Assembly (NCBI RefSeq): GCF_007097385.1
Contig: NZ_VJZS01000005.1
Coordinates: forward strand, 74,705 to 138,704
Length of the DNA stretch: 64,000 nt
Source: Flavobacterium sp. ZT3R18
Lineage (GTDB): Bacteria; Bacteroidota; Bacteroidia; Flavobacteriales; Flavobacteriaceae
Direction: 5' to 3'
Position numbers and translations under genes: made by a program. Of this stretch, positions 1 to 9,885 are shown piece after piece. Positions within the stretch are counted from its first letter, which is position 1. Every line of letters starts with the position of its first letter. Under the pieces are notes generated by a model that was not told where the DNA came from, did no database searches, and was given only the letters and a program-made list of their open reading frames with translations.

Positions 1-197
1 TTTATTGGCATTTGACATTGAAATACTATTCTTTTCATCACTCACAACTACTTTATTGTTCGCATTTGAATTGCTGACCTGAAGCGATTTTGAACTTATA
101 TTTACAGCAACGGCTTTATTGGCATTTGACATTGAAATACTATTCTTTTCATCACTCACAACTACTTTATTGTTCGCATTTGAATTGCTGACTTGAA
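1..197. repeat. Tandem repeat, 114-bp period (38 codons)
   Basis: Positions 1-78 recur at 115-192 without a mismatch, and similarity continues a few bases further. The period is 114 bp, a multiple of three, so the repeat stays in frame within the minus-strand gene. At least 1.7 copies are visible and the array continues off the left edge. Near-identity at DNA level points to recent duplication or gene conversion. Confidence 0.85.
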
Positions 198-786
198 CAG
201 CACTATCAATTGCTAATGCCGATTTAGAAATAGTAGCACATGAATTTTGATTCGCTACTATCGCATTTGATTTGGATTCATCCTTAACCTTTGGATTCAT
301 CCTTTTATTTTTCGGCTCATTGAAATTCTTAAATCCTGTATTTTTTTTCGTCTTAGAAGAAATAATCGGAACCGTTGTTGCGGCAACTTGATTACCATTA
401 TTCAAATCGATAAACTTAACATTTAACTTAACATTCTTATTGCCATTAACATTACTATTATTACTCCCATTGCTATTGTCATTGCCATTGACATTACTAT
501 TACTATTACTATTACTATTACTATTGCCATTGCTATTGCTATTGACATTGCTATTATTTTCAATACTCATTTCAAATCCATTTTCTGGATTAGAGTTAAA
601 ATACAAAATAGTTGGAACAGAAAGTCCAACTAATAAACTAGCAGCAATCGACCACCAAATAATGGCACGTTTCTTCTTTTTGGGTTGATCTAATTGCGCT
701 TCAATTTTATCCCATAACTCGGGAGGCGGAATACTGGAGAAGTTTTCCAATGAAGAAAAAATAGATTTTGCTTCTTTATTTTTCAT
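1..786 (-). CDS. Putative anti-sigma-like membrane protein with Asn-rich and 38-residue repeats (C-terminus outside window)
   Basis: Open without a stop from 786 to the window edge, so the C-terminus is missing. An in-frame TAA lies two codons before the ATG, which fixes the start. Residues 1-40 are soluble and charged (SSIPPPELWDKIEAQL), 41-65 form one membrane helix beginning IIWWSIAASLLVG, and about 70-115 are an Asn/Ser/Gly low-complexity tract. Further on, a 38-residue unit (VSNSNANNKVVVSDEKNSIS core) is repeated. It lies 79 bp behind an ECF sigma gene on the same strand. In Flavobacteria, proteins with this N-terminal layout next to ECF sigma genes are often anti-sigma-like, and some end in an outer-membrane barrel. 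That role is inferred from layout and context; the missing C-terminus would decide it. Confidence 0.7.
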   Translation of the reverse strand, partial: MKNKEAKSIFSSLENFSSIPPPELWDKIEAQLDQPKKKKRAIIWWSIAASLLVGLSVPTILYFNSNPENGFEMSIENNSNVNSNSNGNSNSNSNSNSNVNGNDNSNGSNNSNVNGNKNVKLNVKFIDLNNGNQVAATTVPIISSKTKKNTGFKNFNEPKNKRMNPKVKDESKSNAIVANQNSCATISKSALAIDSAVQVSNSNANNKVVVSDEKNSISMSNANKAVAVNISSKSLQVSNSNANNKVVVSDEKNSISMSNANK

Positions 787-865
787 GCGACGTTAATATT
801 TGCTTTTTTATGGAACATGGTATCGTCATTTTCTGTCTCTCTTTTGTTTTTGAAGCATGGCGATT

Positions 866-1411
866 TCATGCTATTTTACAGTTTAATACCACCAAAATTC
901 TTTTCTTCAAAATACTCTTGGCTCTATTCAAATTAGATTTCGATGTGCCTTCCGTTATTTCAAGCTGTTTTGCAATCTCTTTGTGTTTCATCTTTTCAAA
1001 AACAAACAAATTAAAAACCATTCGGTATTGGTCAGGTAATTCTTGAATGTATTCTAATAATTTTTCCTGTTCAATTGGGGCCAATTCTAATTCTTCTTCC
1101 TCTATAACATCCGTATCAAAAACATCCAGAAACAAAATGTCTTTTTTCTTTTTCTTCAGCGTTTCCAATAACTTATTGATAAAAATTCGTTTGATCCAAC
1201 CTTCAAAACTTCCCTCAAATTTATATTGTCCCATCTTTTGAAAAGCAATTACGAAAGCCTCCTGAAAAACATCTTTGGCATCGTCCTCATTTCTCATATA
1301 TTTAAGACATAACCCATACAAAACAGGAGAAAACAACTGATAAATTTTCAGTTGTGCTTCTCTGTCGTTTTCGGCGCACTTTTTAATATATAGTTCTATG
1401 TTTTCTTTCAA
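866..1411 (-). CDS. ECF-subfamily RNA polymerase sigma factor
   Basis: A 181-residue sigma-70 family protein of usual ECF length. Region 2 spans about residues 10-90, with the core-binding helix DAKDVFQEAFVIAF (44-57) and FEGWIKRIFINKLLE (69-83). An acidic linker (about 96-112) follows, then region 4 (about 118-172), containing the helix-turn-helix MKHKEIAKQLEITEGTSKSN that reads the -35 element. It would direct core RNA polymerase to a small regulon, probably including its own operon. The gene sits 20 bp after a small secreted-protein gene and 79 bp before a membrane protein that may restrain it. The inducing signal cannot be told from sequence. Confidence 0.93.
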   Translation of the reverse strand: MKENIELYIKKCAENDREAQLKIYQLFSPVLYGLCLKYMRNEDDAKDVFQEAFVIAFQKMGQYKFEGSFEGWIKRIFINKLLETLKKKKKDILFLDVFDTDVIEEEELELAPIEQEKLLEYIQELPDQYRMVFNLFVFEKMKHKEIAKQLEITEGTSKSNLNRAKSILKKRILVVLNCKIA

Positions 1412-1431
1412 GAAAATAGGTATTGAATTCG

Positions 1432-1755
1432 TTATTTTTTTCTTTTATTTTTAGTAAAATCGGCATTCACTATTGCATCTTTGAATGCTACTTTCTGATT
1501 ATTCAAAAACAAATCATCATTATTATACATTTGCCAAATATCTTCAACAAGAATAGATTTATCTTTTATAGTATTCTCAAAATTATTTTTGACCTTCCCT
1601 ACTGGTCTTATTTCCCCTTCATCTGTAAAGATAAAAATTTTCCAGGCCCAGCTTTCCATTATTTCTTTTTTAGACATTTGTTCAAAACCTGCATCATCAG
1701 AAGCGTAGGAACAAAAAGCAAAAAACACAACGCTAATCAATATTATTTTCTTCAT
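1432..1755 (-). CDS. Small secreted hypothetical protein
   Basis: A 107-residue protein with a clear signal peptide (KKIILISVVFFAFCSYAS, cleavage near residue 19) and a short mature part with no domain I recognise. The mature region holds SWAWKIFIFTDEGEIRPVG and a basic C-terminus (TKNKRKK). The gene lies between the PrcB-like lipoprotein gene (61 bp upstream) and the ECF sigma gene (20 bp downstream), all on the minus strand, so one transcript is likely. A role in envelope sensing or as an accessory to the sigma system is only contextual inference. Confidence 0.7.
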   Translation of the reverse strand: MKKIILISVVFFAFCSYASDDAGFEQMSKKEIMESWAWKIFIFTDEGEIRPVGKVKNNFENTIKDKSILVEDIWQMYNNDDLFLNNQKVAFKDAIVNADFTKNKRKK

Positions 1756-1816
1756 AAATATACTTTTAAAATATTATACCATTGAAACAAAACATATAAT
1801 TCTTTAGATTCTCTTA

Positions 1817-2668
1817 TTATTTGGATGCATCCAAAAATGAAATCTTACTATAGATATAATCCATAAACTTGACTAAATTTTCTTGACCTTTCTCTGGGTT
1901 ATTAAAATTTGTAAACTTAATATCGGTCACTACATTTCCTTGATGATATTCTATAAAACACCCGCCACCGTCTGCAATCAAATCATTTTTAAATTCTTTG
2001 GTTTGACCTTTAAGCGCTAGAAATTCTTGAGGAATGTGAGACACAAAACTGGAAAAATCTTCTTTTACGCCAAGTACTTCGTAACTCGCAGACGTTGTGT
2101 TCCCTATCAAAAACCGAATCGTTTTTACATCATCAATTCTATAAGTAGAAGAACAATTGCTTGGACAAAAAAAGCTATACCTCCCAATTACTACATAATC
2201 TACAATCTCTTTCACTTTCTTAAACAAAATGGGTTTATTAGATTTTGGAAGCAACACATAATCAGCAGGATACGTTATTGCAGTCGTTACGATTTCGTCT
2301 TTTTGTGGCTCTTTTTCAAAATACTCTACTGTGATTTGGCAATTGTCTTCTACAACAGCTTGTATTTTTATGGCATATCCGCCCGTTGGTTTTGGTCCTG
2401 CAAAAAGTCCCAATATTCTTTTCTGAGTAAAATCGGGTAACGCAACAGCTACAGTTTGACATGTAGTAAATAATTTTTGAACTTCTTCATTAGAATTTAT
2501 AATTAAAAAAGAAGGTTGTTTTGGGTTTTCTTTTAAAACGCCACAATAACTAAAACCCTCATAAAGAACATTGGTCGTATCACCACAATTTTCTAGATTA
2601 TTATCGGATGCTTCGGTACACGACCAAAAGGGTAGGACAACAAACAACATTAAAATTAAATTCTTCAT
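1817..2668 (-). CDS. Lipoprotein with PrcB C-terminal-like domain
   Basis: A 283-residue protein with a lipoprotein signal (LPFWSC, lipidated Cys17). Residues about 83-151 (GLFAGPKPTGGYAIKI, then TAITYPADYVLLPKSNKP) match the pattern of the PrcB_C domain: a G-x-K-x-TGGY start and a xxYPxxxVxLPK end. That domain is named for a Treponema protease-complex protein and occurs in many secreted Bacteroidota lipoproteins. The C-terminal 130 residues contain six cysteines in total with the linker (FFCPSNCSSTYRI, GGGCFIEY) and are unassigned. It is the first gene of the four-gene minus-strand run that includes the ECF sigma factor. Molecular function is unknown. Confidence 0.75.
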   Translation of the reverse strand: MKNLILMLFVVLPFWSCTEASDNNLENCGDTTNVLYEGFSYCGVLKENPKQPSFLIINSNEEVQKLFTTCQTVAVALPDFTQKRILGLFAGPKPTGGYAIKIQAVVEDNCQITVEYFEKEPQKDEIVTTAITYPADYVLLPKSNKPILFKKVKEIVDYVVIGRYSFFCPSNCSSTYRIDDVKTIRFLIGNTTSASYEVLGVKEDFSSFVSHIPQEFLALKGQTKEFKNDLIADGGGCFIEYHQGNVVTDIKFTNFNNPEKGQENLVKFMDYIYSKISFLDASK

Positions 2669-2846
2669 GTTCTATTTTAGTAAGGTTATAATAGTAAGAT
2701 GCACTTGTTATAAAAAGGTTGCGTGACAACAGTAAAAAAAATGTTGATTTGGTATCTGAATTGGAATAATTCGTGAAATTTTATTTTTTTAAAATTAAGT
2801 ACTCCGTATTAATCAGTACTTTTACTTTTTTAAAAAAGAAAAATTT

Positions 2847-4217
2847 ATGCTAACTATTCTTCCTTTATTATTGGTCTTTATTATTGCTCTCGCAATAGGT
2901 GTTTTTATGGGTAAACTTATATTTTCTGCCCGATTTCAGTCGGAAAAAGTAAGTCTTGAAGAGAAATTAATTGCGCTGAATTCTCAATTCAACCACCAAA
3001 AAGAACAATTTTTATTGGATAAAAACACTTTCGAAAAGCAACTGGAAGTATCCAATTCTGAAAAAGAAAACATCCGAAACGAAAAAGACAGTTTGGCCAT
3101 TCAACTTTCTAAAAAAGAAGTCGATTTTGAAAATCTTTGGGAGCGCAACAAGGAACAGAAAGAAGAAGTCGAAAAACTTCAAGAAAAATTTACCAAAGAA
3201 TTTGAGAACCTTGCCAATAAAATCTTAGAAGAAAAATCGAATAAGTTTACCGAGCAAAACAAAGAAAACATGAAAAACATCTTGTCCCCGCTACAAGATA
3301 AAATTCAGTTATTCGAAAAGAAAGTCGAAGACACACACAAAGAAAGTATCGATTACCATGCTGCTTTACGTCAACAAATACTTGGTTTGAAAGAAATGAA
3401 TATTCAAATGAGCAAGGAAACCATCAACTTGACCAAAGCATTAAAAGGCGATAGCAAAATGCAAGGAAACTGGGGCGAACTGGTTCTGGAACGCGTTCTC
3501 GAAAAATCGGGATTAGAAAAAGGGCGTGAATACGAAGTGCAACAAAGCCATACTACCGAGGAAGGTAATCGTGTGTTCCCAGACGTTGTGATCAATTTAC
3601 CCGATGGTAAAAAGATGGTCGTCGATTCTAAAGTTTCCTTGACTGCTTATGAGAAATACATTAATGAAGACGATGATGTAGTAAAAATAGGTTATTTAAA
3701 AGAGCATGTCAATTCGATAAAACGCCACGTAGAACAATTGGGCGATAAAAATTATCAGGATTTATACCAAATAGAAAGTCCCGATTTTGTTTTGCTTTTC
3801 ATTCCAATGGAACCTGCATTTGCCATAGCGCTCAATGAGGACACTTCATTATACAACAAAGCATTCGAGAAAAACATCGTTATTGTGACGCCTTCTACAC
3901 TATTGGCCACTTTACGAACGATTGATAGTATGTGGGCCAATCAAAAGCAACAGGAAAATGCGTTTGAAATAGCGCGTCAAGCGGGTGCATTGTATGATAA
4001 ATTTGAGGGTTTTGTAGCCGATTTAATAAAAATTGGCAAAAAAATAGACGAGAGTAAAGTAGAATACCAAGGCGCCATGAACAAACTGGTAGACGGAAAA
4101 GGAAATTTAATCATTAGCGTTGAAAAACTTAAAAAAATGGGAGCCAAAGCCAAAAAAGCTCTTCCAGACAGCATATTAAAAAGAGCCGAAACCGATGAGA
4201 ATTTACTTTTAAATTAA
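2847..4217 (+). CDS. rmuC: DNA recombination protein RmuC
   Basis: A 456-residue RmuC family protein, close to the E. coli length. Residues 1-23 are an N-terminal membrane anchor, about 30-190 are a long coiled coil rich in Lys/Glu, and about 200-440 are the RmuC domain. That domain is a PD-(D/E)xK nuclease-like fold with GNWGELVLERVLE (207-219) and the candidate catalytic residues Asp246 (FPDVV) and Asp260-Ser-Lys262 (VVDSK). RmuC limits inversions at short inverted repeats in E. coli and acts on DNA structures. Monocistronic; the next gene is 205 bp away behind a palindromic spacer. Confidence 0.95.
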   Translation: MLTILPLLLVFIIALAIGVFMGKLIFSARFQSEKVSLEEKLIALNSQFNHQKEQFLLDKNTFEKQLEVSNSEKENIRNEKDSLAIQLSKKEVDFENLWERNKEQKEEVEKLQEKFTKEFENLANKILEEKSNKFTEQNKENMKNILSPLQDKIQLFEKKVEDTHKESIDYHAALRQQILGLKEMNIQMSKETINLTKALKGDSKMQGNWGELVLERVLEKSGLEKGREYEVQQSHTTEEGNRVFPDVVINLPDGKKMVVDSKVSLTAYEKYINEDDDVVKIGYLKEHVNSIKRHVEQLGDKNYQDLYQIESPDFVLLFIPMEPAFAIALNEDTSLYNKAFEKNIVIVTPSTLLATLRTIDSMWANQKQQENAFEIARQAGALYDKFEGFVADLIKIGKKIDESKVEYQGAMNKLVDGKGNLIISVEKLKKMGAKAKKALPDSILKRAETDENLLLN

Positions 4218-4227
4218 AACCGCCGTA

Positions 4228-4384
4228 AGTTTTCAGTCTCAGTTTTCAGTTTTCAGTACAAAAGGGTGCTGATTTTAAAAACAGTACGAATACAACCTTA
4301 CTTTTTTACAAATATTGTTAAGAACGCGAATTACTATGTTTACAGACAACTCTGAAAACTGCGACTGCGACTGAAAACTGTGAC
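4228..4384. repeat. Imperfect inverted repeat, TTTTCAG motifs
   Basis: The spacer after rmuC has AGTTTTCAGT-type repeats at 4228-4257 and their reverse complement (CTGAAAACT with GCGACT repeats) at 4352-4384. About 95 unrelated bases lie between. It could fold into a long hairpin after the rmuC stop codon, but the arms are imperfect and no T-run follows, so a terminator role is unclear. Confidence 0.6.
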
Positions 4385-4422
4385 CTTAATACAAATCTCC
4401 TTTTAACCTAAAATTAAGACCA

Positions 4423-4977
4423 ATGGACAAAACCTTCAAAACAGTTGCTTCATCATATATTAGTATATCCGAGTTGATGCTACCATCCCACACCAATTTT
4501 AGCGGAAAAATTCATGGTGGATATATTTTATCGCTTCTCGACCAAGTTGCTTTTGCTTGTGGTTCTAAATTTTCAGGAAACTATTGTGTAACGGCTTCGG
4601 TAGATACGGTCAATTTCTTAAAACCTATTGAAGTGGGCGAATTAGTAACGATGAAAGCCTCCGTAAACTATGTTGGAAAAAGTTCTATGATCGTTGGTAT
4701 TCGTGTAGAAGCCGAAAACATTCAAACTGGCAATGTAAAGCATTGTAATTCCTCTTATTTTACAATGGTTGCCAAAGATAATGAAGGCAAAAGCATGCCT
4801 GTTCCTGGTTTAATTCTCTCTAACCTTGATGATGTGCGAAGATTTTGCAACTGTCTGAAACAAATAGCTCTAAAAAAAGAACGAGACTTACATGAAGAAA
4901 TCTTTGATTATAGTTCAGAAGAAACACTTTCTGCCTTAACAAAATACAATGTTCAACTCAAATTGGATTCTATTTAA
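4423..4977 (+). CDS. Acyl-CoA thioesterase, hotdog fold (YciA/BFIT type)
   Basis: A 184-residue single-hotdog protein that hydrolyses acyl-CoA to fatty acid and CoA in the cytoplasm. The hotdog helix carries N25-FSGKI-H31-GG-YILSLLD40, the arrangement used by this family (Asn/His-Gly-Gly and Asp). It is followed by beta strands ASVDTVNFLKPIEVGELV and ASVNYVGKSSMIVGIRVEAEN. The C-terminal 60 residues form an extra helical extension. The gene stands alone and is closed by a strong terminator 44 bp downstream. Chain-length preference cannot be read from sequence. Confidence 0.88.
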   Translation: MDKTFKTVASSYISISELMLPSHTNFSGKIHGGYILSLLDQVAFACGSKFSGNYCVTASVDTVNFLKPIEVGELVTMKASVNYVGKSSMIVGIRVEAENIQTGNVKHCNSSYFTMVAKDNEGKSMPVPGLILSNLDDVRRFCNCLKQIALKKERDLHEEIFDYSSEETLSALTKYNVQLKLDSI

Positions 4978-5020
4978 AAGAACTAGACTGATTTTTCAAT
5001 CTTTTCAAAACAAGAAAGTT

Positions 5021-5067
5021 AATCCTTGACTTAAGAATAAAAAATTCTTAAGTCAAGGATTTTTTTT
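5021..5067 (+). terminator. Strong rho-independent terminator
   Basis: An 18-bp perfect stem (5021-5038 with 5044-5061, arm AATCCTTGACTTAAGAAT) with a 5-nt loop, followed by a run of eight T at 5060-5067. It closes the thioesterase gene. Confidence 0.92.
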
Positions 5068-5218
5068 ACACTTTTTTAAGACTAATGTTACTAAAATTAC
5101 GTAACTTTAAGAGTGATATCGATGTATACAAAACACATAGTCCAATGATCCTGAAAGTTTTCGAGTTTGTTAGGTTAAATAATGAATCCAATTAGTATGA
5201 CCCTTTAATAGAAAAATT

Positions 5219-5758
5219 ATGAAAAAAATTACTCTATTATTTTTACTGTTAAACATCTATTTTGCTGACGCCCAAGAAAAATTGACCTCTTCAAAATGTG
5301 TAATTCATTTTGAAGCGTCTGTTCCGTTTTTTGAAGCTGTTGAAGCAAAAAACGATGCGGTTAATTGTATTTTAATTCCAGAAAAAAGTCAAATCACCTT
5401 TGTGGCCATTATCAAAAAATTTCAATTCAAAAGAGATTTAATGAAAGAGCATTTTAATGCCAATTATATGGAAAGTGATCGTTATTCTAAAGCTACTTTT
5501 AAAGGAATTATCGAAAAATTTGATATGAAAGATATTAATGAAATCGAGAAGGACTATCAAATAAAAGGTAAAATAGAAATTCACGGCGAATCAAAAGCAA
5601 TTATGGTTTCGGCAAAAATAAAAAGAGTAAAAGACGGCGTTCAAATCAATTCCCATTTTACGCTGAATTCAGATGATTTTAAAATTGAAATTCCTTCTAT
5701 TGTGATCGCCAAAGTTTCAAAATTGGTAAACACAGAGTTGGAATGTCTATTACAATGA
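5219..5758 (+). CDS. YceI-family periplasmic lipid-binding-like protein
   Basis: A 179-residue protein with a signal peptide (about 1-18, ending FADAQ) and a lipocalin-like YceI domain. The family pattern is visible: an early strand region ILIPEKSQITFVAIIKKFQF, then ANYMESDRYSKATFKG (the usual N-x-xMxxxxYPxATFxG element), and a late YQIKGKIEIHGESKAI strand (the usual L-x-G-x-LTI-x-G element). YceI proteins bind polyisoprenoid or fatty-acid ligands in the periplasm; the ligand here is unknown. The family often sits near respiratory or carotenoid genes, but nothing nearby supports a pathway. Confidence 0.88.
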   Translation: MKKITLLFLLLNIYFADAQEKLTSSKCVIHFEASVPFFEAVEAKNDAVNCILIPEKSQITFVAIIKKFQFKRDLMKEHFNANYMESDRYSKATFKGIIEKFDMKDINEIEKDYQIKGKIEIHGESKAIMVSAKIKRVKDGVQINSHFTLNSDDFKIEIPSIVIAKVSKLVNTELECLLQ

Positions 5759-5904
5759 ACTGTTTTTAGTGATTAGTGATTGGCCATCCACTTTTGGTAT
5801 CGTTAACGGCTAGTTACTTTTTACTAATCACTTTGTCTTTTCCCCTTTGCCTTTTGCTCTTTGCTCTTTGCTCTTTGCTTTTTTTTCTAACCACTAAAAG
5901 CTAA

Positions 5905-6816
5905 CTATTTGATACAATCTATAAGAGCTCTTTTCAAGTTTTTGAATTTAAATCTAAAACCTAGACTTTTTATTTTATCCGATGAAACCCTCCTACCGGT
6001 CAAAACAATCGAAGCCATTTCTCCCATTACCAATCGCAATACAAAAGCAGGCACATTTGGGAGCCAAATAAAATATCCATACTCTTTTGCCAATAATCTG
6101 GAAAAAGACGAATTTGTAGTACTATCATTGATGGTCGCATTATAGGCACCAATCATATTTTTATTTTTAATTGCTTCAAGATAAATCGCACACAAATCAG
6201 ATATATGTATCCAAGGCATATACTGTTTTCCAGACCCCAATGCCGACCCAAAACCTGTTTTAAAAACAAAGTTTAGCTTTTTCAAAACCCCTTCATTCTT
6301 TCCCAAAACCAAACCCGTTCGGATCTTAACCGTTCGGATACCTAAACCAGCAATTAAATCGGCGGATTGTTCCCATTTCTGGCAAGTTATTCCAACAAAA
6401 TCATTCCCCGGAAGCGTATTTTCGGTGCAAATCCCTTCTCCATTTAGAGCGCCATAGACTCCAATTCCAGAAGCCGACACAAAAGCCTCACTGTTTTTAT
6501 TATGCTTTTTCAAAACCGTATAAATCAATTCAGCTGATTGTGTCCTACTATCGATTATTTCGGTCTTTCTTTTAGTAGTCCATCTTTTTTCGGCAATATT
6601 CTCCCCTGCCAAATGAATGATATAATCCGCATGGAGTACTGCTTCTTCATCCATACTTTGACTGGAAACATCCCAAACATAATAGGTAATGCCTTCAGTG
6701 TTGGGTTTAGGGCTTCTCGTTAATATAGAAACCGTATAGCCTTTATCCAACAACATCCTCGTTAAATGCTTTCCAATAAAACCAGTTCCTCCCGTTATTA
6801 AAACATTCTTGTTCAT
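5905..6816 (-). CDS. TIGR01777-family NAD(P)-binding epimerase-like protein
   Basis: A 303-residue extended-SDR protein. The N-terminus VLITGGTGFIGKHLTRMLLDKG holds the GxxGxxG dinucleotide site (about residues 8-14), and HADYIIHLAGENIAEKRW is the TIGR01777 signature. SASGIGVYGAL replaces the usual Ser/Tyr active-site region. The C-terminal DUF1731-like part ends GFRFKFKNLKRAL. I chose the ATG at 6816 over one at 6855 because the homologous region begins there and a TATATTTG -10 box (6853-6860) overlaps the longer form. The substrate is unknown. It is often near photolyase genes in Flavobacteria, as here. Confidence 0.9.
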   Translation of the reverse strand: MNKNVLITGGTGFIGKHLTRMLLDKGYTVSILTRSPKPNTEGITYYVWDVSSQSMDEEAVLHADYIIHLAGENIAEKRWTTKRKTEIIDSRTQSAELIYTVLKKHNKNSEAFVSASGIGVYGALNGEGICTENTLPGNDFVGITCQKWEQSADLIAGLGIRTVKIRTGLVLGKNEGVLKKLNFVFKTGFGSALGSGKQYMPWIHISDLCAIYLEAIKNKNMIGAYNATINDSTTNSSFSRLLAKEYGYFIWLPNVPAFVLRLVMGEMASIVLTGRRVSSDKIKSLGFRFKFKNLKRALIDCIK

Positions 6817-6852
6817 AGCCATTAAAATTTGGGGCAATCTATTATAATTATA

Positions 6853-6860
6853 CAAATATA
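6853..6860 (-). promoter_or_regulatory. Candidate -7 box (TATATTTG) of the TIGR01777 gene
   Basis: Matches the TAnnTTTG consensus of the Bacteroidota primary sigma factor, 37 nt before the ATG at 6816. No clear -33 TTG at the right spacing. Its position rules out translation from 6855. Confidence 0.5.
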
Positions 6861-6946
6861 AGTCACTATACAGTTCGGCATTATTAATGTTTAGTTAAAC
6901 GTCGCTATTTTCATACTCAAAACTAGCGTGCAACTAGTATACAAAA

Positions 6947-7030
6947 TCATTTGGGCGTGTCACCATTAGGAAAAGGGGGCAACTCATAGCGTATATTTTC
7001 ATTCAAAGCTGGAGGTAATTTAAAATCACT
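6947..7030 (-). pseudogene. Possible coding remnant without start codon
   Basis: A 27-codon open stretch on the minus strand encodes a protein-like tail (LPPALNENIRYELPPFPNG, then DTPK and a TGA). A stop lies directly upstream in the same frame and there is no ATG. It overlaps the last codon of the photolyase gene by 5 bp in another frame. Composition looks coding rather than random, but the stretch is short and could be chance. Confidence 0.25.
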
Positions 7031-8321
7031 TCAAAATCCCCGCTTTATAAGTAGCAATAGCTCTGTCTCTGGCGAATGCGTGTTCTACCATAGGCTCGCA
7101 ATAACCCAAATCAAATTCAGAAATCCATTTGCGGATGTAGATTCCTTTTTCGTCAAATTTTTTGAGTTGGATTTCGGGATTAAAAACCCTGAAATAAGGT
7201 GCTGCATCGCAGCCCGTTCCCGCAGCCCATTGCCAATTGCCTACATTGGCGGACAAATCGTAATCCAATAATTTTTCGGCAAAATAGGCTTCGCCCCACT
7301 GCCAGTTGATCAGTAAATGTTTGCACAAAAAGCTCGCTACCACCATGCGTACTCTATTGTGCATATAGCCCGTTGCATTGAGCTGACGCATTCCCGCATC
7401 GACCATAGGATAGCCCGTAGTTCCCGTACACCAACGTTTGAAATCTTCTTCATTGTTGCGCCACTGTATGCCATCATAAGCCGATTTAAAATTATGGCTG
7501 ACAACTTTTGGGAAGCTAAATAAGATTTGCATAAAGAACTCTCTCCATATCAATTCACTCAAAAAAACATCGTTTTTACGAACCGCCCAATTGACTAACT
7601 TTCGAACACTTACTGTTCCAAAACGTAAATGAGGCGAAAGATACGAAGTACTATCGATAGCAGGAAAATCGCGGGTTTCGTGGTAATGGGTAATCTGTGT
7701 TAGGTTATACGGAATTACTTTTATGTCACTTTCTTCGAAACCTATTTGCTGCAAAGAAGGAAAATCAAAGTGGTTTTTGTAAAAATTGGAAAAGTAACTT
7801 TGGGTGTCATACTCCTGAATTGGCGCCATGGATTTGTATTTTTCCAACCATTTATTTTTGTATGGGGTGTAAATGGTATAGGGCAATCCATCGGCTTTGG
7901 TGATTTCGTTTTCTTCAAAAATCACTTGATCTTTGAATAAAAAACAAAGAGCATGGTTTGCTTTTGCTAAAGCATCAATAGCCAAATCTCTTTTGATGGC
8001 GTACGGCTCATAATCTTTATTGAAGAAAACACCCGAAATAGCAAATTCTTCAAAAAGGGATTCCCAAACCTCAGTTGTGGTTCCTTTTTTGATTAAAAGT
8101 GAACTCCCGATGGCATTCAGCTGTGTATTTATTTTCTGGAGAGATTCGTATATAAAACCAACTCGTGCATCATTTTTCGGCAAGCTATTCAAAATATCCG
8201 TGTCGAAAATAAACAAGGGAATCACAGGGTGTTTGGATTGCAAAGCATGATACAACGCCACATTATCATCCAGACGCAAATCGCGTCGGAACCAAAAAAT
8301 AGATACTTCTTGTTTTATCAT
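7026..8321 (-). CDS. phrB: Deoxyribodipyrimidine photolyase / cryptochrome family
   Basis: A 431-residue protein of the photolyase/cryptochrome class, usual length for a CPD photolyase. The N-terminal Rossmann antenna domain starts IFWFRRDLRLDDNVALYHAL (about residues 7-26). The C-terminal FAD-binding helical domain contains SELIWREFFMQILFS, GYPMVDAGMRQLNATGYMHNR and WQWAAGTGCDAAPYFRVFNP, including the Trp-rich electron-transfer and DNA-lesion region. It repairs UV-made cyclobutane dimers using light. I chose the ATG at 8321 because the antenna domain starts there; the frame extends 30 codons upstream to 8411 with unrelated sequence. Confidence 0.93.
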   Translation of the reverse strand: MIKQEVSIFWFRRDLRLDDNVALYHALQSKHPVIPLFIFDTDILNSLPKNDARVGFIYESLQKINTQLNAIGSSLLIKKGTTTEVWESLFEEFAISGVFFNKDYEPYAIKRDLAIDALAKANHALCFLFKDQVIFEENEITKADGLPYTIYTPYKNKWLEKYKSMAPIQEYDTQSYFSNFYKNHFDFPSLQQIGFEESDIKVIPYNLTQITHYHETRDFPAIDSTSYLSPHLRFGTVSVRKLVNWAVRKNDVFLSELIWREFFMQILFSFPKVVSHNFKSAYDGIQWRNNEEDFKRWCTGTTGYPMVDAGMRQLNATGYMHNRVRMVVASFLCKHLLINWQWGEAYFAEKLLDYDLSANVGNWQWAAGTGCDAAPYFRVFNPEIQLKKFDEKGIYIRKWISEFDLGYCEPMVEHAFARDRAIATYKAGILK

Positions 8322-8516
8322 TGTTTTTTGAATTGGTAAATACCTAATTGCTTTTTTACTAATTGCTCCAGTCTGAATAATTCCAAAATATCGAAAATAG
8401 GTACCCCACACGTATAATCCGCTAAAATTAATAAATTGAATCCTTTTATATCACTAATTTCTTTGCCAAACCTTAATTTTCTGACCCTTAATCCCTAAAT
8501 TCTCTTTATATTTGTG

Positions 8517-8524
8517 CCTTTCGA
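8517..8524 (+). promoter_or_regulatory. Candidate -7 box (TATATTTG) for purB
   Basis: A TAnnTTTG match 14 nt before the purB ATG at 8539, implying a very short leader. No TTG at the expected -33 distance. It excludes the upstream ATG at 8512. Confidence 0.5.
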
Positions 8525-8538
8525 AAAAACAACAAAAA

Positions 8539-9885
8539 ATGACTACATTAAACGAATTGAATGCTATATCGCCAATTGACGGACGTTATAGAAATAAGAC
8601 AATGTCTCTGGCTCCTTTTTTCTCTGAAGAAGCTTTAATCAAATACCGTGTATTAGTTGAAATTGAATATTTCATTACTTTATGTGAAGTTCCTTTGCCG
8701 CAATTAAAAAACGTCAACCCTACTATATTTGATAGTTTACGTGCTATTTATAAAAACTTCTCTACCGAAGATGCCCTTTGGATAAAAGAAACCGAAAAAG
8801 TAACCAACCACGATGTGAAAGCGGTTGAATATTTCATCAAAGACGCTTTTGAAAAACTGGGTTTATCAGAATACAAAGAGTTTATCCATTTTGGATTAAC
8901 TTCTCAAGATATTAATAATACGGCGATTCCTCTTTCGACAAAAGAAGCTTTTGAGAAAGTGTATATGCCATCGTTAATCACTTTAACCTCCAAGTTAAAA
9001 GACCTAAGCCAAGAGTGGAAAGACATTCCGATGCTAGCTCGTACACACGGACAACCTGCCTCTCCTACTCGTTTGGGTAAAGAAATTGGAGTTTTTGTTG
9101 AGCGTCTAGAAGAGCAAATGCGTTTGTTGTTTAACATTCCGTTTGCAGCCAAATTTGGTGGAGCTACCGGAAATTACAATGCGCACCATGTGGCTTACCC
9201 TCAAATTGACTGGAAACAATTTGGAAGTAAATTCGTGGAAGACAACTTGGGATTACACCATTCTTTTCCAACAACACAAATCGAACATTACGATCATTTT
9301 GCCGCATTTTTTGATGCTTTAAAAAGAATAAACAGTATCATTATTGATTTGGATCGTGACATTTGGACGTATGTTTCAATGGAATATTTCAAACAAAAAA
9401 TAAAAGCAGGAGAGATTGGATCATCGGCTATGCCACACAAAGTGAACCCAATTGATTTTGAAAACTCCGAAGGAAACTTAGGAATAGCAAACGCTATTTT
9501 CGAACATCTATCGGCAAAATTACCAGTTTCGAGATTGCAACGTGATTTGACAGACAGTACCGTTTTAAGAAATATTGGTGTACCAATAGGGCACACTTTA
9601 ATTGCTTTTGAAGCTACGTTGAAAGGATTGAACAAATTACTATTGAACGAACCTAAATTTCACGAAGATTTAGAGAAAAACTGGGCTGTTGTAGCCGAGG
9701 CGATTCAAACGATTTTAAGACGTGAAGCCTATCCAAATCCGTATGAAGCCTTGAAAGGTTTGACCAGAACGAATGAAGCGATTGATAAAAAAGCGATTCA
9801 TGATTTTATTGCAACACTCGATGTTTCGGATGAAATTAAAGCTGAATTGATGCAAATTACTCCAAGCAATTTCTTGGGGATTTAA
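8539..9885 (+). CDS. purB: Adenylosuccinate lyase
   Basis: A 448-residue member of the fumarase/aspartase superfamily. It cleaves SAICAR and adenylosuccinate, releasing fumarate, in purine synthesis. The N-terminus (NAISPIDGRYRNKT) is typical of PurB. His170 in ARTHGQPASPT is the conserved catalytic-region histidine, and the flexible signature loop GSSAMPHKVNPIDFEN holds Ser295-Ser296 and Lys301. Start set at 8539 because the conserved N-terminus begins there and the candidate -7 box lies at 8517-8524. Monocistronic, with the next gene 36 bp downstream. Confidence 0.97.
   Translation: MTTLNELNAISPIDGRYRNKTMSLAPFFSEEALIKYRVLVEIEYFITLCEVPLPQLKNVNPTIFDSLRAIYKNFSTEDALWIKETEKVTNHDVKAVEYFIKDAFEKLGLSEYKEFIHFGLTSQDINNTAIPLSTKEAFEKVYMPSLITLTSKLKDLSQEWKDIPMLARTHGQPASPTRLGKEIGVFVERLEEQMRLLFNIPFAAKFGGATGNYNAHHVAYPQIDWKQFGSKFVEDNLGLHHSFPTTQIEHYDHFAAFFDALKRINSIIIDLDRDIWTYVSMEYFKQKIKAGEIGSSAMPHKVNPIDFENSEGNLGIANAIFEHLSAKLPVSRLQRDLTDSTVLRNIGVPIGHTLIAFEATLKGLNKLLLNEPKFHEDLEKNWAVVAEAIQTILRREAYPNPYEALKGLTRTNEAIDKKAIHDFIATLDVSDEIKAELMQITPSNFLGI

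Follow-up and report, generated by a model that had tools for sequence, protein, structure and literature searches.

The gene at the left edge of the window (a stretch of 64,000 nucleotides, G000:C55:74705-138704 of a 4.96-Mb genome) very probably encodes a dual-membrane-spanning (Dma/Reo-type) anti-sigma factor that controls the ECF sigma factor of its own operon. In the mechanism that we infer, a cytoplasmic module of ~41 residues would hold the ECF sigma factor of the gene next upstream, a single helix would pass through the inner membrane, a long disordered strap rich in Asn, Ser and Lys would cross the periplasm, and the outer membrane would house an OmpA-like barrel of eight strands, one of whose loops is long and variable. 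If the barrel were misinserted, pulled or bound to something outside, the protein would probably be cut or altered and the sigma factor freed. Stepwise proteolysis is known for other anti-sigma factors, and its role in the release proposed here is a guess. The freed sigma factor would then transcribe its own operon, composed of genes for a PrcB_C lipoprotein, a small secreted protein, the sigma factor and the anti-sigma factor, and in relatives might also transcribe other small lipoprotein genes from promoters of the form ACGCAACC[AT]TTT-N11-CATCT. Computed support comes from the layout of the protein, the predicted fold of its barrel, the gene order, and a promoter motif together with its link to carrier genomes. 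We regard the protein as a Flavobacterium member of the Dma kind rather than a new kind, the class being set by the four-part layout and the adjoining ECF sigma factor. What is added here is repeat-driven variation of the tether and a candidate regulon of lipoproteins, an RNA and a microprotein.

Within the window, the anti-sigma frame occupies positions 1..786 of the reverse strand, with its ATG at 784-786, and stays open to the window edge over 262 codons (residues 1-262 of at least 607). Extension of the contig leftward recovered the whole gene (L009:7668-9491), comprising 607 codons, three of them X from a 7-N assembly gap, and thereby the C-terminus (...FNVGLNLSF), which had been out of view in the preliminary description of the window. 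The layout given there, namely a short cytoplasmic part, one helix, an Asn/Ser tract and 38-residue repeats, all after an ECF sigma gene, holds in the sequence. The cytoplasmic N-terminal module (residues 1-41; 664..786, reverse strand) carries in the alignment F..PPPELW..IE..L followed by a Lys-rich stretch with which it ends. Hydropathy places a single transmembrane (TM) helix at ~residues 42-60 (607..663, reverse strand), where the AF2 model of the orthologue L045 has a low-confidence helix (41-65). A linker of at least 312 aa and a C-terminal domain of ~235 residues follow. The linker includes an Asn/Ser tract at residues 74-118 (433..567, reverse strand), part of a hexanucleotide microsatellite, and 38-residue (114-nt) tandem repeats (1..197, reverse strand) that run left into the assembly gap. 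The gap lies at L009:8699-8705, inside the repeat region, and the apparent period across it is 201 nt against the 114-nt unit; because the repeats run into it, their copy number and length are lower bounds. At the threshold used, one hydropathy peak was counted in 29 of 30 proteins, the peak of L036 being 1.6. All 30 proteins L010-L039 end in Phe, but so do only 5 of 19 wider relatives, and the residue is therefore not a family-wide mark. Profile comparison with anti-sigma and barrel families, proposed as a check in the preliminary description, gave no family over the cut-off for this protein in either Pfam or NCBIfam. Weak matches such as that to PF09610 (E 0.0047) fall on the membrane helix.

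The neighbouring gene (866..1411, reverse strand; 181 aa, TTG start as listed) encodes an ECF sigma factor according to both Pfam (Sigma70_r2, 1.4e-11; Sigma70_r4_2, 1.4e-16) and NCBIfam. A search with the barrel in 100 related genomes gave a match in 44, with at least 50% identity in 18, the genome of the window included. A search for related loci yielded 130 relatives, of which 80 were kept; these nearest named relatives of the barrel come from Flavobacterium or Flavobacteriaceae (78), one Flavobacteriales MAG and one '[Flexibacter] sp.'. Of the 80, 78 have an upstream homologue of the ECF sigma gene, and the contigs of the other two end inside the linker. The spacing between the two genes is 0-68 nt in 77 of the 78 testable relatives and 601 nt in L059, where the reading frame is broken. 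Segment statistics were computed on 76 proteins, leaving out L055 and L056 (contig ends in the linker), L059 (N-terminus in another frame) and L093 (start not caught by the motif used, although the gene is intact, with a linker of 191).

These comparisons bear on the possibility that we are dealing with an ordinary secreted or outer-membrane protein, its hydrophobic segment being an export signal, its C-terminal domain a plain outer-membrane barrel and its sigma neighbour a coincidence. The likeness of the C-terminal domain to plain OmpA/OmpW barrels and the lack of an anti-sigma family match in Pfam or NCBIfam would both fit such a protein. We nevertheless consider it very unlikely, since sigma and anti-sigma genes adjoin in nearly all testable relatives and the part through the helix is the best conserved, with a mean pairwise identity of 0.79 for the N-terminal part with TM, 0.69 for the barrel and 0.34 for the aligned columns of the linker (77 proteins including that of the window). 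It is further opposed by a positive-inside charge pattern, K+R averaging 6.75 in the 15 residues before TM vs 1.0 after it (n=76), and by the fact that the module, joined to other C-terminal parts, again adjoins an ECF sigma gene (23 of 23 chosen cases, see below). The reading first suggested from the window, an anti-sigma-like protein with a long extracytoplasmic part, draws good support from its layout, from the order of the genes and from the pattern of charges.

Searched with a profile built from 21 rows, the N-terminal module turns up in 81 of 296 genomes of the phylum. Twenty wider matches were selected, for the most part because their reading frames are long, and each is preceded by an ECF sigma gene in the same orientation; by eye, 19 of them show the order module-TM-linker-barrel and one (L178) is FecR-like. 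The layout also extends to proteins from other families of the phylum. A second set of 20 was picked for short frames and, together with L151-L153, makes up the 23 proteins in which the module is joined to a short frame or another C-terminal part; a sigma gene lies directly upstream in every one, L151 and L152 being only partly in view. The module being the common element beside sigma genes with differing C-terminal parts, we take it as the putative sigma-binding part, for which this is the best available evidence. The frames of L153 and L222-L241, directly behind ECF sigma genes, are 203-293 aa long including the module, and several share conserved C-terminal tails. In L151 and L152 (both 1488-3225) the module is followed, judging by eye, by a TonB-plug-like stretch and a VWA-like domain, with an ECF sigma gene adjoining and the frame running off the locus.

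The C-terminal domain is predicted to be an 8-stranded OmpA-like barrel of the outer-membrane type, as had been suspected before the C-terminus was seen. AF2 was run on orthologues, and the barrel model is that of the F. laiguense orthologue L045, built with an alignment of 44 orthologues; the L045 barrel is 86% identical to that of the protein under study. The model has eight long strands (pLDDT 84.6). Its top PDB match in Foldseek is OmpA (1bxw, E 6e-6), and VIA-align gives Z scores of 16.4 to an OmpA model entry (9a2m), 15.7 to OmpW (2f1v) and 15.5 to a solved OmpA (9fzc). A 51-residue loop (71-121), poorly predicted at 74-94, is the least conserved part of the barrel (0.53 vs 0.81 for the strands) and would be extracellular judging by the topology of the model. 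In the full-length L045 prediction, helices 4-12, 22-33 and 41-65 are all of low confidence, residues 66-217 have no structure, a helix spans 218-241 and the barrel begins at 256; pLDDT stays below 50 up to residue 222, with block means of 32-49 over residues 1-60. The OMP_b-brl_2 profile (PF13568) matches eight other places in the genome of the window, not the anti-sigma barrel. Signalling of the FecI/FecR kind, by way of a separate TonB-dependent receptor, likewise combines an ECF sigma factor, an inner-membrane regulator and an outer-membrane barrel. We consider it extremely unlikely here, given that the barrel is fused to the regulator and is predicted to be of the 8-strand OmpA type rather than a TonB-dependent receptor, that no FecR match was found at E<=1, and that no receptor-like cluster appears among the neighbour clusters shown (by eye, with Pfam on some).

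In the 76 proteins the part before TM measures 39-45 aa (sd 0.95) and the barrel 225-238 aa (sd 3.4), while the linker ranges over 164-453 aa (median 319.5, sd 67), values that may be underestimates because many assemblies are draft and repeats can collapse. The linkers of close relatives are rich in N (17%), K (13%) and S (12%). Their differences in length are largely in-frame repeats, mostly of 33 aa. Tandem Repeats Finder detected arrays in 37 of the 76 linkers and in none of the 76 N-terminal parts, barrels or sigma stretches; the main periods are 29-40 aa, and both unit and copy number vary by species. Among pairs whose barrels are 80-90% identical, the linkers differ by a median of 38 aa and a maximum of 167, against 1 and 10 for the barrels. 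Sensing of the envelope by length had been proposed, the repeat linker then acting as a ruler of set length that is drawn taut when the periplasm widens. All measured linkers are indeed long, those of 31 wider relatives spanning 136-300 aa (L178 left out, barrel starts taken from motifs chosen by eye, and the lower limit not unbiased, the set having been chosen mainly for long reading frames). Yet a ruler is hard to reconcile with linkers that change this much, to a large extent by in-frame repeats, between near-constant end domains, and we regard it as very improbable. The linker is best read as a slack tether rather than a fixed-length ruler: according to the length data, the strap must be long enough but would be free otherwise.

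The Asn/Ser tract consists of 45 residues, among them 22 N, 12 S and 4 G. In the 38-residue repeats, DNA positions 1-83 and 115-197 are 99% identical at a spacing of 114 nt, equal to the 38-residue period, and VSNSNANN occurs twice, at residues 199 and 237. The exact hexanucleotide pattern of the tract was found at four places in the genome of the window and at none in the sister genome G030; a search of four other Flavobacterium genomes turned it up in one. The sister orthologue L044 lacks an Asn tract. Further AATRGY hexanucleotide arrays of the same genome lie at G000:C69:166908, C70:127377 and C11:30975. Two of the four arrays (C69, C70) fall between called frames of 100 aa or more. A different run, of poly-Thr, stands in the linker of the F. 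sufflavum orthologue L093 as an independent simple-repeat insertion. That the tract and the repeats themselves bind or sense something, e.g. peptidoglycan, might be thought from the confinement of tandem repeats to the linker. We rate this as highly improbable, because the tract is a microsatellite of the genome of the window, absent from the sister, and the repeats are conserved neither in unit nor in copy number; moreover, linker identity is low, AF2 assigns the region no structure and L093 has poly-Thr instead. The data suggest that the Asn tract arose by recent microsatellite growth tolerated by a disordered strap. The Asn-rich repeats are probably a fast-evolving spacer rather than the working part of the protein.

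The anti-sigma gene is the last of a four-gene unit that can be followed across 81 loci (the 80 relatives and that of the window), with the PrcB_C lipoprotein in 74, a small lipoprotein in 59, the sigma factor in 79 and the anti-sigma factor in 81; a MepB-like gene follows downstream in 65. In the window, the first gene (1817..2668, reverse strand) encodes a lipoprotein-like protein with a PrcB_C domain (Pfam PF14343, 1e-13), and the second (1432..1755, reverse strand) a small secreted protein of 107 aa. The place of the latter is taken in most relatives by another small lipoprotein, the protein found in the clade of the window forming a cluster of 6. Upstream of the first gene, GCAACC is present in 74 of 74 sequences, 51-61 nt before the ATG, and is followed by [CTA]ATCT at a distance of 15 nt in 68 and 14 nt in 6; GCAACC-N15-[CT]ATCT appeared in 0 of 14,800 mononucleotide shuffles. 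The fuller pattern stands ahead of the operon in 74 of 74 loci, and the predicted ECF promoter of the window, ACGCAACCTTTT-N11-CATCTT (2696..2724, reverse strand; 27 nt before the first gene), matches it in full.

Allowing at most one mismatch to ACGCAACC[AT]TTT-N11-CATCT[AT], carrier genomes contain 62 sites distributed over 18 of 18, vs 2 for the backwards control. The 18 non-carriers, drawn from the 20 genus members in which the barrel search found nothing, hold 1 site in total (control 0). Genomes whose barrel match is only distant are in neither set, and the two sets also differ in clade and genome size. In the genome of the window, beyond the operon, the core pattern is no better than chance (2 vs 2 backwards; 24 vs 24 at up to 3 mismatches). 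We read out 63 sites, namely the 62 and one two-mismatch site in the genome of the window. Most stand before small lipoprotein genes: 43 of the 63 precede a frame of at least 90 aa, the median distance being 29 nt, and a lipobox-like Cys near the N-terminus occurs in 38 of these 43 target frames, compared with 105 of 764 mechanically called neighbourhood frames searched with the same pattern. A second core match in the genome of the window, C66:106174, is followed after 29 nt by a lipoprotein gene that falls into one cluster with targets from other species; what speaks for it is position and homology, the count itself being that of the backwards control.

Another 18 sites belong to a unit without a long frame, in which a first promoter is followed by an RNA and a further promoter by a basic frame of 34 aa (MKEKIELLYNKN...). 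The RNA, roughly 120 nt long, closes with a terminator-like hairpin of 13 bp. A search of 150 Flavobacterium genomes gave the 34-aa frame in 29, with two weak matches among them. Of the 29 loci, 28 were read: both promoter cores are at fixed places in 26, one core is present in one, and none in one. The locus left out is L300 (G017), where the match (E 5e-4) was taken as spurious, lying just upstream of that genome's barrel. Tandem units with each part behind a ACGCAACC-type promoter are seen at L242, L248, L255, L261, L262, L317, L320 and L272-L298. In an alignment of 26 of the RNAs, both partners have changed in 4 of the 13 base pairs of the hairpin; a closed frame of 20 aa or more is present in 14 of the 26, and the RNA may thus have a coding role. 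A model of the RNA gave strong matches (E<1e-9) in 10 of the 18 carriers, mostly the genomes that trained it; weaker ones (E 4e-4 to 0.01) occur among the carriers as well as in 4 of 10 non-carriers and were taken as chance. Neither the frame search nor the RNA model at E<=0.01 detected the unit in the genome of the window. In nine loci the RNA unit has no Rfam match at gathering thresholds, and a Flavo-1 match at L254:980-1057 is unrelated to it; for the microprotein, neither Pfam nor NCBIfam gave a match over the cut-off. We consider it an evenly balanced proposition that in Flavobacterium a one-protein two-membrane anti-sigma factor governs a sigmaE-like outer-membrane response, its outputs being small lipoproteins (PrcB_C and others) and, in one subclade, two further products that are each read from a separate ACGCAACC-type promoter, a terminator-ended small RNA of ~120 nt and a basic microprotein of 34 aa. 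The strap would then be a free-running tether of tandem repeats, forming a natural series from 164 to 453 aa.

The founding Dma paper reportedly appeared in PNAS in 2024. In E. coli, sigmaE and RseA join outer-membrane stress to a membrane anti-sigma factor and an ECF sigma factor that acts on its own operon and on small RNAs. The system proposed here would follow the same logic, but sensor and anti-sigma factor, separate in E. coli, would be one chain, and the RNA and microprotein are only candidates, absent from the genome of the window. If real, the RNA/microprotein unit would be an envelope-stress small RNA in this phylum, where, to our knowledge, few are known. In PMC13088901, Dma proteins are described as having an N-terminal anti-sigma domain, a TM helix, a long disordered tether and a C-terminal beta-barrel, with an ECF sigma gene adjacent; Dma1 and Dma2 of Bacteroides thetaiotaomicron act through their sigma factors on vesiculation, and Dma2 also on glycan genes and vesicle cargo. 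The four-part layout and the adjacent ECF sigma gene are shared with the present protein, the comparison being one of layout and the present sigma being placed at the level of ECF. The Flavobacterium system differs from Dma1/Dma2, as described there, in its neighbours (PrcB_C lipoprotein, small secreted protein and, in many relatives, MepB-like gene downstream), in a linker that varies strongly by tandem repeats, and in the promoter motif proposed here. Reo, from the EcfO-Reo pair of Bacteroides fragilis and Phocaeicola vulgatus, is proposed in PMC13114119 to sense outer-membrane stress and is likewise described as reaching through every compartment between the cytoplasm and the cell surface; the EcfO-Reo regulon includes NigD proteins, which are grouped with surface lipoproteins when their release is explained. 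It belongs to another lineage, and the present system differs in its candidate targets, which are the PrcB_C protein and further short lipoproteins. Among open-licence papers, we came across none that deals with a Dma regulon in Flavobacterium, with the promoter of such a regulon or with a tether made of tandem repeats.

Proteins of the Dma type have been described only recently, from work on gut Bacteroides, and according to PMC13088901 their signal and a large part of their mechanism are still to be settled. Flavobacterium offers many aligned orthologues whose tethers naturally cover a broad range of lengths, together with a candidate regulon and a candidate promoter that could report activity. 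With these it becomes testable whether the tether passes on tension, registers insertion of the barrel or binds a ligand.

Two incidental features lie around the anti-sigma gene. Between it and the sigma gene (778..869, no strand assigned) is a copy of a dispersed ~95-bp repeat, with 14 similar places elsewhere in the same genome; in the three loci that were read, the repeat is just upstream of the start codons of unrelated genes. The corresponding spacer measures 14-68 nt in the sister species L044-L049, and L044 seems to keep a remnant of the repeat. RNA folding of the spacer gave nothing special (z -1.08), and Rfam at gathering thresholds had no match in window positions 1-9000. On the other side, the anti-sigma gene has a convergent neighbour (L009:3349-7557) encoding a protein of 1402 aa with an endonuclease/exonuclease/phosphatase domain, an MBG_2 domain and a type IX secretion tail.
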